Assembly (NCBI GenBank): GCA_958296235.1
Contig: OY282457.1
Location: 4,335,338 to 4,399,337 of the forward strand
Direction: 5' to 3'
From: an uncultured Candidatus Binatia bacterium
GTDB lineage: Bacteria > Desulfobacterota > Binatia > Bin18
DNA: 64,000 nucleotides
Under the pieces are notes generated by a model that saw only the letters and a list, made by a program, of their open reading frames with translations, was not told the origin of the DNA and ran no database searches. Positions within the stretch are counted from its first letter, which is position 1, and every line of letters starts with the position of its first letter. The position numbers and the translations under genes are program-made. Shown one piece after another: positions 41,701-46,276 of the stretch.

Positions 41701-41747
41701 AGCGAGAGGGTCAAGCAGAAGGCGTCGGGCAGGAAAGAATCTCGTCG
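41701..41747 (+). repeat. Left flanking direct repeat of the CRISPR-Cas9 locus
   Basis: 47 bases that match 46002-46048 in the same orientation at 42 positions. Shared blocks are GTCAAGCAGAAGGC and GGCAGGAAAGAATCT. It lies 57 bases before the tracrRNA 3' end; its partner lies 38 bases beyond the last CRISPR repeat. I found no other copy in the window. Confidence 0.75.
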
Positions 41748-41759
41748 TCAGCGGAGGGA

Positions 41760-41839
41760 AAGGCCCGGCGTACCGAGCCTTCCAATTTTGTGACTTGAGC
41801 CTTGTTAACGAGTTGGCTCAAATCCAGATGATCTAAGCT
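41760..41839 (-). ncRNA. tracrRNA
   Basis: On the minus strand the sequence from 41839 down is the anti-repeat: 22 consecutive pairs with the CRISPR repeat (one G-U), then a small bulge, then a six-pair lower stem (CAACTC with GGGTTG) and a final GTTG/TAAC pairing. A tail with AACAAGGCTCAAGTC follows. It ends in a 9-bp GC hairpin at 41760-41781 with a four-base TACG loop, then TTTCCC. This is the layout of a type II tracrRNA. The 5' end is inferred and could extend a few bases toward cas9; a TATACGAT element about 10 bases upstream may be the -10 box. Confidence 0.87.
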
Positions 41840-41901
41840 GTGGAAGCGTAGCATCGTATACGCTAGCCTGCAAGAAATATTTGAAAGAGAGGAGGGCAAG
41901 C

Positions 41902-44900
41902 ATGGCGTGGCGTCTGGGGATTGATCTGGGAACAAACTCTTTAGGCTGGTGGGCGTTCAACGTTGAAAAAGAAGGCCATCAGTGGCGGGTCAGCGACTCG
42001 CTCAACGGGGGCGTGTACATCTTCCCGGATGGGCGGGAGCCGGCAAAAAGTGGGCGTGTGGGTAACAGCAACGCGGTAGAACGCCGCAGGGCGCGGTCAA
42101 TGCGCCGCAACCGGGACCGACGCAAAACACGCCTTCGTGCCTTCATGCGCGAGCTTGTTGAGTTGGGGCTGATGCCCAAATCGCGAGACGAACGTGACAA
42201 GCTGTTCCAGCCACGAGCGAAATCCAACGCTCCTGACCGCTCCAATCCCTATTGGCTGCGCGCCGAGGCAGTGGAACGGCTCCTTGCACCCTACGAACTT
42301 GGGCGGGCGTTGTTTCATCTCGGACTACGGCGAGGCTTTAAGTCCAACCGGCTTGAACAGGCGGATGACGATGGCGGTAAACTCAAGAAACACAAACTCA
42401 AGAAACGCATAGACGAACTCCACAAGACCCTGAACGGCAGAACGCTCGGTCAGGTCCAATGGGCGCAATTCCAGGCGGAGAGAGAACGGCAAAAGTCGGG
42501 TGAAAAGCCTGCTGGCATCCGGTTCAGGGGCGAGAGCGAGTTCTACCCGGACCGAGCCATGTACGCGGCGGAGTTCGACGAAATCCGCAAGAAGCAGGAG
42601 GCCCACCACCGTCCAGAGCCCGCTGATTGGGACCGTTTACGGGATCGGTATGTTCTTTTTCAATGGCCTTTGAAACCTGTGGAAAGAGGTCGCTGCGAAT
42701 TCTTTCCAGAAGAGGCTCGACATTGGCGCGATACTCCTATCGGCCACGATTTCCGTATCTATCAGGAAGTCAATATGCTGCGTTGGGTCGATGCCGACTA
42801 CCAGGAGCATCTCTTGAGTGACGACCAAAGGTCAGCCGTATTGCATCTCTTGCTCACCAGAAAATCTGAAGTCAAATTCAACTCACTACGTAAACAGAAG
42901 CGCCGAGACCGTACCCCGCTGTTCCCCGGCTGTATACGGTTCAATCTGGAAAGCGAGAAGCGCAAAGGACTCAAGAACCACGCTATCGGTGCAACGCTCG
43001 CAAAGAATCCGAATCTTTCCCACCTGTGGCAACGCCGCTGCTCAGACGAAGGCGACGCCGGTCTGCTCGATAACGTTTTCGAGGCGCTTCACGAAGAAGC
43101 CGAACCGGAAAGTCTCGCAACACGGCTCGCGGCAGATTTTGAATTTGATAGTGCAGTTATTGAGGCGTTTTCTACACTCCACCCTTCCCGGGCAACCGCA
43201 AATGTTTCCCGCCGATTCATGGAAGCCATCGTACCGATCATGCGCGATCAGAAACTCTTGTACTGGGAAGCGGTCCGTGAGGTTAAAGACGGGAACGGCT
43301 CTCCTCTGCGTCACAGTCAACAGCCTGAAGGTAGACACCATGACACTCTTCCTTATTATGGGGAAATACTGCATGGCTCGACACTCGGAGCAGACCCCAC
43401 AGCCGACCCGCAGACTGCACCTGAACAACACTTTGGCAAGATCAACAATCCGACGGTTCATGTCGCGCTCAACAGCCTTCGGCGAGTCGTAAATACCTTG
43501 ATTGAACGGTACGGTGAACGACCAGTTGAAATCCATGTGGAGCTGTCGCGAGCCCTGAAACGGACTCGGAAAGAGCGCGACGAAGACACTAAACAGCAAG
43601 CTCACAACCAGGAGGAAAATGACCGTATTCGAAAGGAACTCTCGAAACTCGGAGTCGCACAATCAGCGCGTAACATCAAGAAGTTTAAGCTGTGGGAGGA
43701 ACTCGGTAAGAACACGCTGGCTCGTTGCTGTCCCTACTCTGGGAAGCCGATTTCTTGTGCCCAGCTTTTCAACGACAATGGAGAGGCGGAAATTGAACAT
43801 ATCCTCCCATTCAAGCGCACGCTCGATGATTCTATAGCCAACCTCACCGTCGCAATGCGCTGGGCCAACCGGCGCAAGGGCAATCAGACACCCTACGAGG
43901 CGTTTGCTTCAAACGCTCACGCCGCTTACGGCATCGAGTGGGACACCGTGCGCAGGCTCGCTGACGGCTTACCCGACAACAAAAAATGGCGGTTCGGACC
44001 GGACGCAATGGCCCGGTTTGAGGGTGAGAACGATTTCATTGCTCGGCAGTTGACGGACAACGCCTATATCGCGCGCGCAGCTATGCGTTACCTTCGCTGC
44101 CTCAAGAATGTAGAACAGATTGTTCCCAACCGTGGCGGCCTGACCTCCCTATTGCGTAGGAAATGGGGCTTCAAGAAGGACCGTGGAGATCACCGTCACC
44201 ACGCCGTTGACGCCGCCGTCATTGGGCTGGCCGACCGGGCGATGCTTAATAGGGTCTCCAGACAGACCGCCCGAGGCGCGGATGACCGGGTGCACATCAT
44301 CGTGCCCGAACTCCCGGGACCGATTGAGCAAGCGATTCGCGCCCGTGTTCCTGAAATTGTCGTGGCATTCAAGCCAGACCACGGCTGGCAGGGAGCGATG
44401 TTCAAAGACTCCGCATATGGTTTCATTGCGCCGGAACGACGCGACCCGGATATGCCGGAACACAATCTCGTGGTTCGCAAGGCGTTCACGGATCTTACCC
44501 TCAAAGAATGTGGATTCATCAAAGATAAAGATAAGCCGCCTCGCTATGTTGGTGGTTGCATCCGCGCTGAGCGGCTTCGCAACTCCATAGGTGTATACCT
44601 CACACAGGCAGCAGAAAATGGGGAAGATTTGACAAAGCCCGCCATATTGAAAAAGGTCCTGGCACGTTTCGGAGCAGAGTACGGGGTCGGCAAGGTGCGG
44701 ATTCTGGTTACTGACCAAACCGTTGTGCCCATACCCTCGACTCCCTACAAGGGCTATAAGCCTGATTCCTACGTCTGTTGTGATATCTGGCGTTGTCCAA
44801 AGGGGGAGAAGGGTGGGTGGCAGAAAGGGAAATACGAGTGGCGCGGTGTGTATTGGTCCTATGCGGATACGCCGAACGGTGTACCTGCACCGGGAGCGCG

Positions 44901-45150
44901 TAAGCCACACCCCGCCGCAAAGCTGGTCGCTCGTCTTTATAAGAGCGACATGATCGCCTACGAGAAAGACGGGCAAACGCAGATCATGCGCGTTGCCGGG
45001 TTCAGCACGACAAATAATAAGTTGGACGTGGTTCCGCATTCCGCTGCCGACCCGAAACAGAATTTTGTGCTCATCGACAAGCTTGGCGCTGGAGGCCTGC
45101 GGAAACTCTGGGTGTTTCCAGACGGTCGGATAAAGGGCCTCAAAAGATGA
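41902..45150 (+). CDS. cas9: Compact Cas9 endonuclease (type II-C-like)
   Basis: 1082 residues. The order is RuvC-I (WRLGIDLGTNSLGWW, Asp8), arginine-rich bridge helix (ERRRARSMRRNRDRRKTR, near residues 60-78), a REC lobe, RuvC-II (RPVEIHVELSRALK, Glu547), HNH (EAEIEHILPFKRTLDDS, His633, with ANRRKGN), RuvC-III (DHRHHAVDAAVIG, His767 and Asp770) and a C-terminal PAM-interacting region. All catalytic residues are present, so it should cut both DNA strands. ATG 41902 has GGAGG six bases upstream. The size is near the small II-C enzymes. No cas1, cas2, csn2 or cas4 lies nearby. The PAM is not predictable. Confidence 0.97.
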   Translation: MAWRLGIDLGTNSLGWWAFNVEKEGHQWRVSDSLNGGVYIFPDGREPAKSGRVGNSNAVERRRARSMRRNRDRRKTRLRAFMRELVELGLMPKSRDERDKLFQPRAKSNAPDRSNPYWLRAEAVERLLAPYELGRALFHLGLRRGFKSNRLEQADDDGGKLKKHKLKKRIDELHKTLNGRTLGQVQWAQFQAERERQKSGEKPAGIRFRGESEFYPDRAMYAAEFDEIRKKQEAHHRPEPADWDRLRDRYVLFQWPLKPVERGRCEFFPEEARHWRDTPIGHDFRIYQEVNMLRWVDADYQEHLLSDDQRSAVLHLLLTRKSEVKFNSLRKQKRRDRTPLFPGCIRFNLESEKRKGLKNHAIGATLAKNPNLSHLWQRRCSDEGDAGLLDNVFEALHEEAEPESLATRLAADFEFDSAVIEAFSTLHPSRATANVSRRFMEAIVPIMRDQKLLYWEAVREVKDGNGSPLRHSQQPEGRHHDTLPYYGEILHGSTLGADPTADPQTAPEQHFGKINNPTVHVALNSLRRVVNTLIERYGERPVEIHVELSRALKRTRKERDEDTKQQAHNQEENDRIRKELSKLGVAQSARNIKKFKLWEELGKNTLARCCPYSGKPISCAQLFNDNGEAEIEHILPFKRTLDDSIANLTVAMRWANRRKGNQTPYEAFASNAHAAYGIEWDTVRRLADGLPDNKKWRFGPDAMARFEGENDFIARQLTDNAYIARAAMRYLRCLKNVEQIVPNRGGLTSLLRRKWGFKKDRGDHRHHAVDAAVIGLADRAMLNRVSRQTARGADDRVHIIVPELPGPIEQAIRARVPEIVVAFKPDHGWQGAMFKDSAYGFIAPERRDPDMPEHNLVVRKAFTDLTLKECGFIKDKDKPPRYVGGCIRAERLRNSIGVYLTQAAENGEDLTKPAILKKVLARFGAEYGVGKVRILVTDQTVVPIPSTPYKGYKPDSYVCCDIWRCPKGEKGGWQKGKYEWRGVYWSYADTPNGVPAPGARKPHPAAKLVARLYKSDMIAYEKDGQTQIMRVAGFSTTNNKLDVVPHSAADPKQNFVLIDKLGAGGLRKLWVFPDGRIKGLKR

Positions 45151-45176
45151 TTGGCGGTCTCGTTGAAGTCGCTGAA

Positions 45177-45200
45177 AATGGACGCTACCTATCCGTCCAT
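45177..45200 (-). terminator. Hairpin at the cas9-proximal end of the array
   Basis: Between the cas9 stop and the first repeat, ATGGACG (45178-45184) pairs with CGTCCAT (45194-45200) around a nine-base loop. Read on the minus strand the stem is followed directly by TTTT; on the plus strand by CGAG. This fits an intrinsic terminator for an array transcribed from right to left. Confidence 0.6.
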
Positions 45201-45202
45201 CG

Positions 45203-45963
45203 AGCTTAGATCATCTGGACTTGAGGTCAACCCGCAACCCGGTAATGATTGACCCGTTCATCGGCCATAGCTTAGATCATCTGGACTTGAGGTCAACCCG
45301 CAACGCGACCAAGGGGGGGGCGCTGCCCGACAAGAGCTTAGATCATCTGGACTTGAGGTCAACCCGCAACCCGCGCCGAAATGGTTTCCTCCGTTGGTGG
45401 AGCTTAGATCATCTGGACTTGAGGTCAACCCGCAACCGCAGGTCCTGCCAGGCCGTCGGGCCACTAAGCTTAGATCATCTGGACTTGAGGTCAACCCGCA
45501 ACCCTGCTCGCAGCATGGGAAGAGGAAGGCAGAGCTTAGATCATCTGGACTTGAGGTCAACCCGCAACACAAGCCTGGTTGCGGCATTCGGGGGCATAAG
45601 CTTAGATCATCTGGACTTGAGGTCAACCCGCAACTAAGGGGGGGGACTTGATGGACGAAGCAATAGCTTAGATCATCTGGACTTGAGGTCAACCCGCAAC
45701 CTGCGCGGCCTCCAGCCCATACCGAGGGCGAGCTTAGATCATCTGGACTTGAGGTCAACCCGCAACAAGCGGGTGGACCCCTGAAGAATCACTGGAAGCT
45801 TAGATCATCTGGACTTGAGGTCAACCCGCAACTCCAGCGCATCCCTTTTGAACATGATCGCAGCTTAGATCATCTGGACTTGAGGTCAACCCGCAACCCG
45901 GGTCGGGCTGCCGGGCAAGATATTGACAGCTTAGATCATCTGGACTTGAGGTCAACCCGCAAC
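45203..45963 (-). CRISPR. CRISPR array, 12 repeats and 11 spacers
   Basis: Twelve 36-bp repeats, all identical by eye, starting at 45203, 45269, 45335, 45401, 45467, 45533, 45599, 45665, 45731, 45797, 45862 and 45928. Spacers are 30 bp except one of 29 (45833-45861). In the inferred minus-strand direction the repeat begins GTTGCGGGTTGACC and ends GATGATCTAAGCT. The 3' half pairs with the tracrRNA at 41804-41839. Neither end repeat is degenerate, so the age order of spacers cannot be read. No spacer matches another part of this window. Confidence 0.98.
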
Positions 45964-46001
45964 GTCACATATCGGTGACTGACATCACAGGACTGACACG
46001 T

Positions 46002-46048
46002 AGCGAGAGCGTCAAGCAGAAGGCACCCGGCAGGAAAGAATCTTGTCG
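46002..46048 (+). repeat. Right flanking direct repeat of the CRISPR-Cas9 locus
   Basis: Partner of 41701-41747 (five mismatches in 47 bases, no gaps). It starts 38 bases after the last CRISPR repeat, leaving very little room for a leader. The 38 bases contain the inverted repeat GTCAC/GTGAC (45964-45979). Confidence 0.75.
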
Positions 46049-46057
46049 ATAATGTCC

Positions 46058-46200
46058 CAGTTTGCAGATTCCCCCTCACCCCAACCCTCTCCCCTTCGAC
46101 AGGCTCAGGACAGGCCTCCAGGGGAGAGGGAGCAGAGCCTCTGTCAGGGAGGGGGGCGCTGGGCCGGCAGCGGGGGAGGGGGATGTGAAACTGAGACACT
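46058..46200 (+). repeat. Dispersed palindromic repeat element, copy 4
   Basis: The copy begins CCCAGTTTGCAGATTCCCC, continues with CCCTCACCCC, TTCGACAGGCTCAGGACAGG and CAGGGGAGAGGGAG, and then CCTCTGTCAGGGAGGGGGG, which is shared with copy 5 at 60.74 kb. It ends near AAACTGAGACACTCC. With the flanking repeat it fills the space 45964-46276; no gene is seen there. Confidence 0.75.
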
Positions 46201-46276
46201 CCCATCTTGTCTGTTTCCTTGACCCTCAGCGTGTCTCTGCCTATGATCCGAGGACGCTGGCCAAAGGAGGGCGGAC

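Follow-up and report, generated by a model that had tools for sequence, protein, structure and literature searches.

How did a CRISPR array with 11 spacers come to stand beside an apparently complete cas9 gene and a tracrRNA without a working adaptation module, and what can such a locus still do? We addressed this question in a stretch of DNA of 64,000 nucleotides (the window), and we proposed, with a probability of roughly 0.88, that a horizontally gained type II-C locus was cut by deletion to an interference-only unit. This reading draws on features that are legible in the DNA itself, namely the insertion, the cas1 stump, the intact Cas9, the complementarity of tracrRNA and repeat, and the lack of a type II Cas1. 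By position in the window, the features are:

41701-41747, no strand: left copy of a 47-bp direct repeat, in the upstream region of the TSUP gene; single in congeners.
41753-41803, minus strand: tracrRNA tail, with a conserved GTTAACAAG core and a terminal hairpin (41759-41781).
41804-41839, minus strand: tracrRNA anti-repeat, predicted to pair along the crRNA repeat with a duplex energy of -51.9 kcal/mol.
41902-45150, plus strand: cas9, 1082 aa, type II-C group, catalytic residues intact.
45147-45202, plus strand: cas1 stump MIGGLVEVAENGRYLSVHR, 19 codons, cut off at the first CRISPR repeat.
45203-45963, minus strand: CRISPR array, in which 12 identical 36-nt repeats enclose 11 spacers.
45964-46001, minus strand: probable leader side, at the array end farther from cas9, assigned from position and orientation only.
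46002-46048, no strand: second copy of the 47-bp direct repeat, on the right of the insert.
46049-46213, no strand: dispersed repeat element, with 53 matches in the genome and absent from the congeners' site.

As the first-pass annotation had claimed, the Cas9 of 1082 aa retains all of its catalytic residues (D8, E547, H633, H767, and D770). The HNH asparagine N656 is also in place, TIGR01865 matched residues 4-1041 with 512 bits in a profile search, and the best PDB match spans both lobes. The HNH histidine is preceded by Glu, where Asp is the commoner residue, and the same Glu was observed in the Kordiimonas and Novosphingobium relatives. The nearest Cas9, 48% identical, was that of a Kordiimonas MAG (locus L066). 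In a tree built without classical references such as Nme Cas9, these two were sisters (100/100) within a clade of nine rows (100/99), which includes Nitrobacter, Limnohabitans, and sphingomonad Cas9s, comprises loci with the cas9-cas1-cas2 architecture or its remnants, and is separate from the long-branched II-A Cas9 of Nicoliella. The expectation that the protein would lie outside any well-studied clade was therefore borne out only in part, because it falls in a well-supported II-C clade. No ORF for csn2 (II-A) or cas4 (II-B) was found between the TSUP and thiolase genes, and the closest relatives have only cas9-cas1-cas2, without csn2 or cas4. An assignment to Cas9d (type II-D) was rejected, with NF049971 scoring 102 bits against a cut-off of 375. 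A full-length Cas9 that has both active sites, RuvC and HNH, and an anti-repeat complementary to the array repeat characterize the locus as type II; its position in the Cas9 tree is that of II-C, and of the cas1 and cas2 genes that a II-C operon should contain, only 19 cas1 codons are left. These comparisons supported a II-C ancestry of the locus, which is not a complete II-C system. No Cas9 relative was matched in viral contigs; a 6.8-kb "Bacteriophage sp." record from human faeces (MT837457.1, H110) encodes a distant one, with 27% identity over 85% of the query. With its crRNA-tracrRNA pair identified, this compact, divergent nuclease could be used in PAM assays.

The claim of a tracrRNA and a 12-repeat array in which all repeats are identical was likewise upheld. 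Ten of the spacers are 30 nt long and one is 29 nt. The tracrRNA tail and hairpin favor the minus strand for both array and tracrRNA. This reading and the repeat unit of 36 nt (GTTGCGGGTTGACCTCAAGTCCAGATGATCTAAGCT on this strand) correct the earlier description; from 41839 to about 41753, the minus strand holds the anti-repeat, then the GTTAACAAG core, and then the hairpin. The resulting orientation of the array, opposite to that of cas9, is in line with what Fonfara and colleagues described for II-C loci (PMC3936727). The tail is homologous to the Kordiimonas tracrRNA, with the same arrangement and the same core. Only a short T-run (TTTCCC) follows the hairpin here, and a long T-run follows it in Kordiimonas; given the short T-run, termination of the tracrRNA may be impaired. 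Repeat-internal crRNA promoters are known from Neisseria. The minus-strand repeat of the window embeds a -35-like TTGACC and a weak -10-like TAAGCT (TTGACC-16-TAAGCT; the Kordiimonas equivalent is TTGACC-16-TACACT), which would fit promoters of the Neisseria kind, albeit with a weak -10. An Rfam scan of the locus gave no match, even at E up to 1, and the repeat was not found in viral contigs. One intergenic stretch of 33 nt (L077, G012:C368:1066-1098) shares 88% identity with the repeat and lies in a genome from the same family in which no Cas9 was matched; with an E of 4.5e-4 for one of 145 genomes, this marginal stretch is perhaps a relic repeat or perhaps due to chance.

At the place where adaptation genes would be expected, the beginning of a cas1 gene is preserved. 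Its ATG overlaps the stop codon of cas9, and its frame enters the first repeat and then stops. These 19 codons can be aligned gap-free with the first 19 residues of intact type II Cas1 proteins, with 11, 11, and 10 identities over 19 to those of Azospirillum, G009, and Kordiimonas, respectively. Scored against these three proteins, the stump reached 52; among the 127,888 six-frame positions in the window, the runner-up reached 22 (background mean -18, standard deviation 7.8). In the Kordiimonas locus, cas9 is followed by cas1 and cas2, both intact, and then by a 15-repeat array with 30-nt spacers. Because the stump sits at the operon position and the Kordiimonas relative has an intact cas9-cas1-cas2, the simplest reading would be that a canonical II-C locus lost cas1-cas2 through a deletion that began at cas1 codon 20 and ended at the array. 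The shortness of the stump (19 codons) counts against this reading, as does the lack of the exact ancestral sequence, the closest relative being just 48% identical. Thus, cas2, csn2, and cas4 are absent as previously stated, and cas1 is not entirely so; the locus is, as described, compact and self-contained and has no working adaptation module, with 19 codons of cas1 left and cas2 gone.

The neighbors of the locus, a TSUP permease gene on one side and a thiolase/lipid-transfer protein gene on the other, are unrelated to it, in line with the first-pass annotation. In all six congeners of the collection, these two genes adjoin with no CRISPR between them (an empty site), and in one of them (G002) the junction of the flanks corresponds to window positions 41738 and 46214. 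The two 47-bp copies are identical at 42/47 positions, compared with 26/47 for the next best place in the window; the bounds originally given for the locus (41701 and 46048) coincide with this repeat, which had gone unmentioned. The dispersed repeat element beyond the right copy is about 155 bp long, and its best other match (81%) adjoins the array of a second Cas9 locus. No integrase, transposase, or conjugation genes were found in 41748-46213, and the congener alignment revealed no further inserted gene at the site. The G+C content of the locus (0.54-0.58) is lower than that of its neighbors (0.56-0.65), a difference too mild to be used as evidence of transfer, and it was left out as such. 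Because the six congeners have the empty site and the 47-bp direct repeat flanks the insert, we concluded from these genome comparisons that the locus was gained by horizontal transfer in this lineage. Recombination using the duplicated 47-bp block is one possibility for the insertion. Alternatively, though less probably, recombination between the 47-bp copies may have removed the locus precisely in the ancestor of the congeners. As for the earlier suggestion that the locus moved as an effector-only unit, the six empty sites show that the locus did move, and the stump and the intact Kordiimonas operon contradict a unit that was effector-only from the start.

Taken together, these features led us to propose that a canonical II-C operon, in which a minus-strand tracrRNA was followed by cas9-cas1-cas2-array, was inserted between the TSUP permease and thiolase genes, and that a deletion beginning at cas1 codon 20 and reaching to the first repeat would afterwards have taken out the rest of cas1 together with cas2. 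The remnant would be capable of interference only: once expressed, as it should be, its minus-strand crRNAs would pair with the tracrRNA and load Cas9, and the loaded Cas9 should direct DNA cleavage of the 11 recorded targets. The crRNAs should be processed by host RNase III, or would arise from the repeat-internal promoters. The array in the window should be unable to acquire new spacers. RNA-guided DNA interference with a frozen memory is most likely the function of the locus. The differences between the two 47-mers (5/47) translate into about 0.055 changes per site in each copy, a dating that rests on 47 positions and assumes identical 47-mers at insertion followed by neutral drift. At 0.055 per site, about six nonsense changes in cas9 and about 24 changes in the repeats would be expected, and none was observed, which is suggestive of selection on Cas9 together with either selection on the repeats or renewal of the array after insertion.

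The memory would not be frozen if the array still gained spacers in trans. The genome, one contig of 4.62 Mb that is 98% complete, contains three genes matching the generic Cas1 model, located in a I-E locus (Cas1e, Cse1, Cas3), a I-D-like locus (Cas6d, Cas3), and a III-B locus (Cmr3, Cmr6, Csx1); together with two II-C loci, these (L014, L015, L016) make five CRISPR-Cas loci. The presence of these three cas1 genes and the identity of all 12 repeats would accord with supply by the Cas1-Cas2 of one of these systems, and in F. columnare the VI-B system uses a II-C Cas1 despite differing leaders and repeats (PMC8092290). However, the donor Cas1 in F. columnare was of type II, and a search of the 4.62-Mb genome for another type II Cas1 (TIGR03639) gave nothing above the cut-off. 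Moreover, the spacers are 30 nt long, as in intact II-C loci, and not 33 nt (I-E), about 34-39 nt (I-D-like), or 39-45 nt (III-B), and the repeats of these three arrays are unrelated to that of the window. We consider spacer gain in trans very unlikely, and the initial idea that adaptation acts from elsewhere in the genome was not sustained. Because the 30-nt spacers are common to the window and Kordiimonas arrays and do not match the genome's other arrays, they were most likely captured by a II-C Cas1-Cas2 prior to its loss. That loss could already have taken place in the donor, in which case the locus travelled as an effector-only tracrRNA-cas9-array; this is possible, but we regard it as doubtful. 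The insert begins near the tracrRNA hairpin and ends near the leader, CampyICE1 provides a mobile precedent (PMC8743540), and adaptation-less Cas9 loci are frequent in the clade: in a small sample of nine, mostly plasmids, intact cas1 lies near cas9 in three members (Kordiimonas, G009, and Limnohabitans), and the other six have a cas1 fragment, a pseudogene, or nothing. Conversely, the flanking repeats differ at 5/47 positions and the array repeats at 0/432, and the roughly 24 changes expected without renewal hint that the array was renewed after the insertion, although the dating behind this argument is weak, the 47-mer being short.

A different question is whether the locus works at all. That it is a decaying, functionless fossil would be in keeping with the loss of cas1-cas2, the short T-run of the tracrRNA, and the wholesale decay of plasmid-borne relatives, and also with the search for protospacers: when the array was compared with phages, plasmids, and 145 genomes of the class, and six of its spacers with viral contigs, the near matches that came up were all short and unconvincing, and no PAM could be derived from them. 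However, the frame of 1082 codons is open with every catalytic residue kept, anti-repeat and repeats pair along their length, the repeats are all identical, and cas9 shows none of the approximately six nonsense changes expected if the divergence of the flanking repeats is neutral, so we judged decay to be improbable. Least likely in our view is that Cas9 was kept for gene regulation, like the scaRNA-type regulation in Neisseria or Francisella. A fixed set of guides without adaptation would suit a regulatory role, and an Nme scaRNA offers an example (PMC13431127), but no spacer matches the host genome, where the comparison returned only the array itself, the anti-repeat, and one 20-nt near match.

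The same genome contains a second Cas9 locus (L013 6453-11129; G000:C1:1656.5-1661.1 kb), whose Cas9 is 28% identical to that of the window and belongs to another clade. Its array has 14 identical repeats. Of its cas1, residues 1-30 survive, possibly along with a C-terminal piece, and cas2 is still there but frameshifted. This insertion is also absent from the six congeners, in which the flanks lie close together without Cas9. The tree places the second Cas9 with others from the same class (G024; 99/96) and that of the window with Kordiimonas (100/100); as judged from the tree and the insertion sites, each locus was gained and stripped independently of the other. An assembly error might account for the frameshift in cas2 but hardly for the deletion in cas1. 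It is conceivable, if rather unlikely, that selection and not just decay was responsible, in that two unrelated II-C loci would independently have become frozen-memory units in this lineage, perhaps as the host acquires its spacers through the I-E, I-D-like, and III-B systems.

Interference-only Cas9 loci are already known as a type. Effector-only loci have usually just been listed as devoid of cas1-cas2; in this case, the sequence allows the mechanism to be followed, from the gain of a complete II-C operon, with the empty site in six congeners, to its deletion down to a 19-codon cas1 stump. The doubled loss of adaptation in one genome is the most interesting part of the finding, and the two cases, together with the broken cas1 in most relatives of the clade, make drift versus selection testable.

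In comparison with known systems, the locus resembles the type II-C systems of Neisseria meningitidis, Pasteurella multocida, Limnohabitans plasmid pTEGF4, and Kordiimonas MAG NAT158 in the size and domains of Cas9, the tracrRNA beside cas9, the 36-nt repeat, the 30-nt spacers, the predicted reading of the array opposite to the cas operon, and the lack of csn2 and cas4; unlike these systems, its cas1 has 19 codons and its cas2 is gone. It shares the Cas9 clade and the missing or broken adaptation genes with loci, having cas9 alone or a degraded cas1, in Nitrobacter hamburgensis X14, Bosea ANAM02, Sphingobium RAC03, Novosphingobium ES2-1, and Pseudosulfitobacter plasmids, but most of those loci have no array near cas9 as detected with a simple finder, whereas the array and tracrRNA of the window are complete. 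Among the alphaproteobacterial plasmid relatives (L070, L072, L086, L087, L089), cas1 is mostly broken or missing, and that of the Pseudosulfitobacter plasmid is split by insertion sequences. A mirror case was observed on the Azospirillum thermophilum plasmid (L071), in which cas1, cas2, and a 31-repeat array are intact and cas9 is annotated in two frames. The published adaptation-less II-C Cas9 of CampyICE1 in Campylobacter jejuni/coli (PMC8743540) is likewise a horizontally acquired II-C Cas9 with an array and without intact cas1 or cas2. However, CampyICE1 is an integrative conjugative element that carries three arrays, whose spacers target plasmids, whereas the locus in the window is one chromosomal insert without mobility genes and, unlike CampyICE1, still keeps its cas1 stump.
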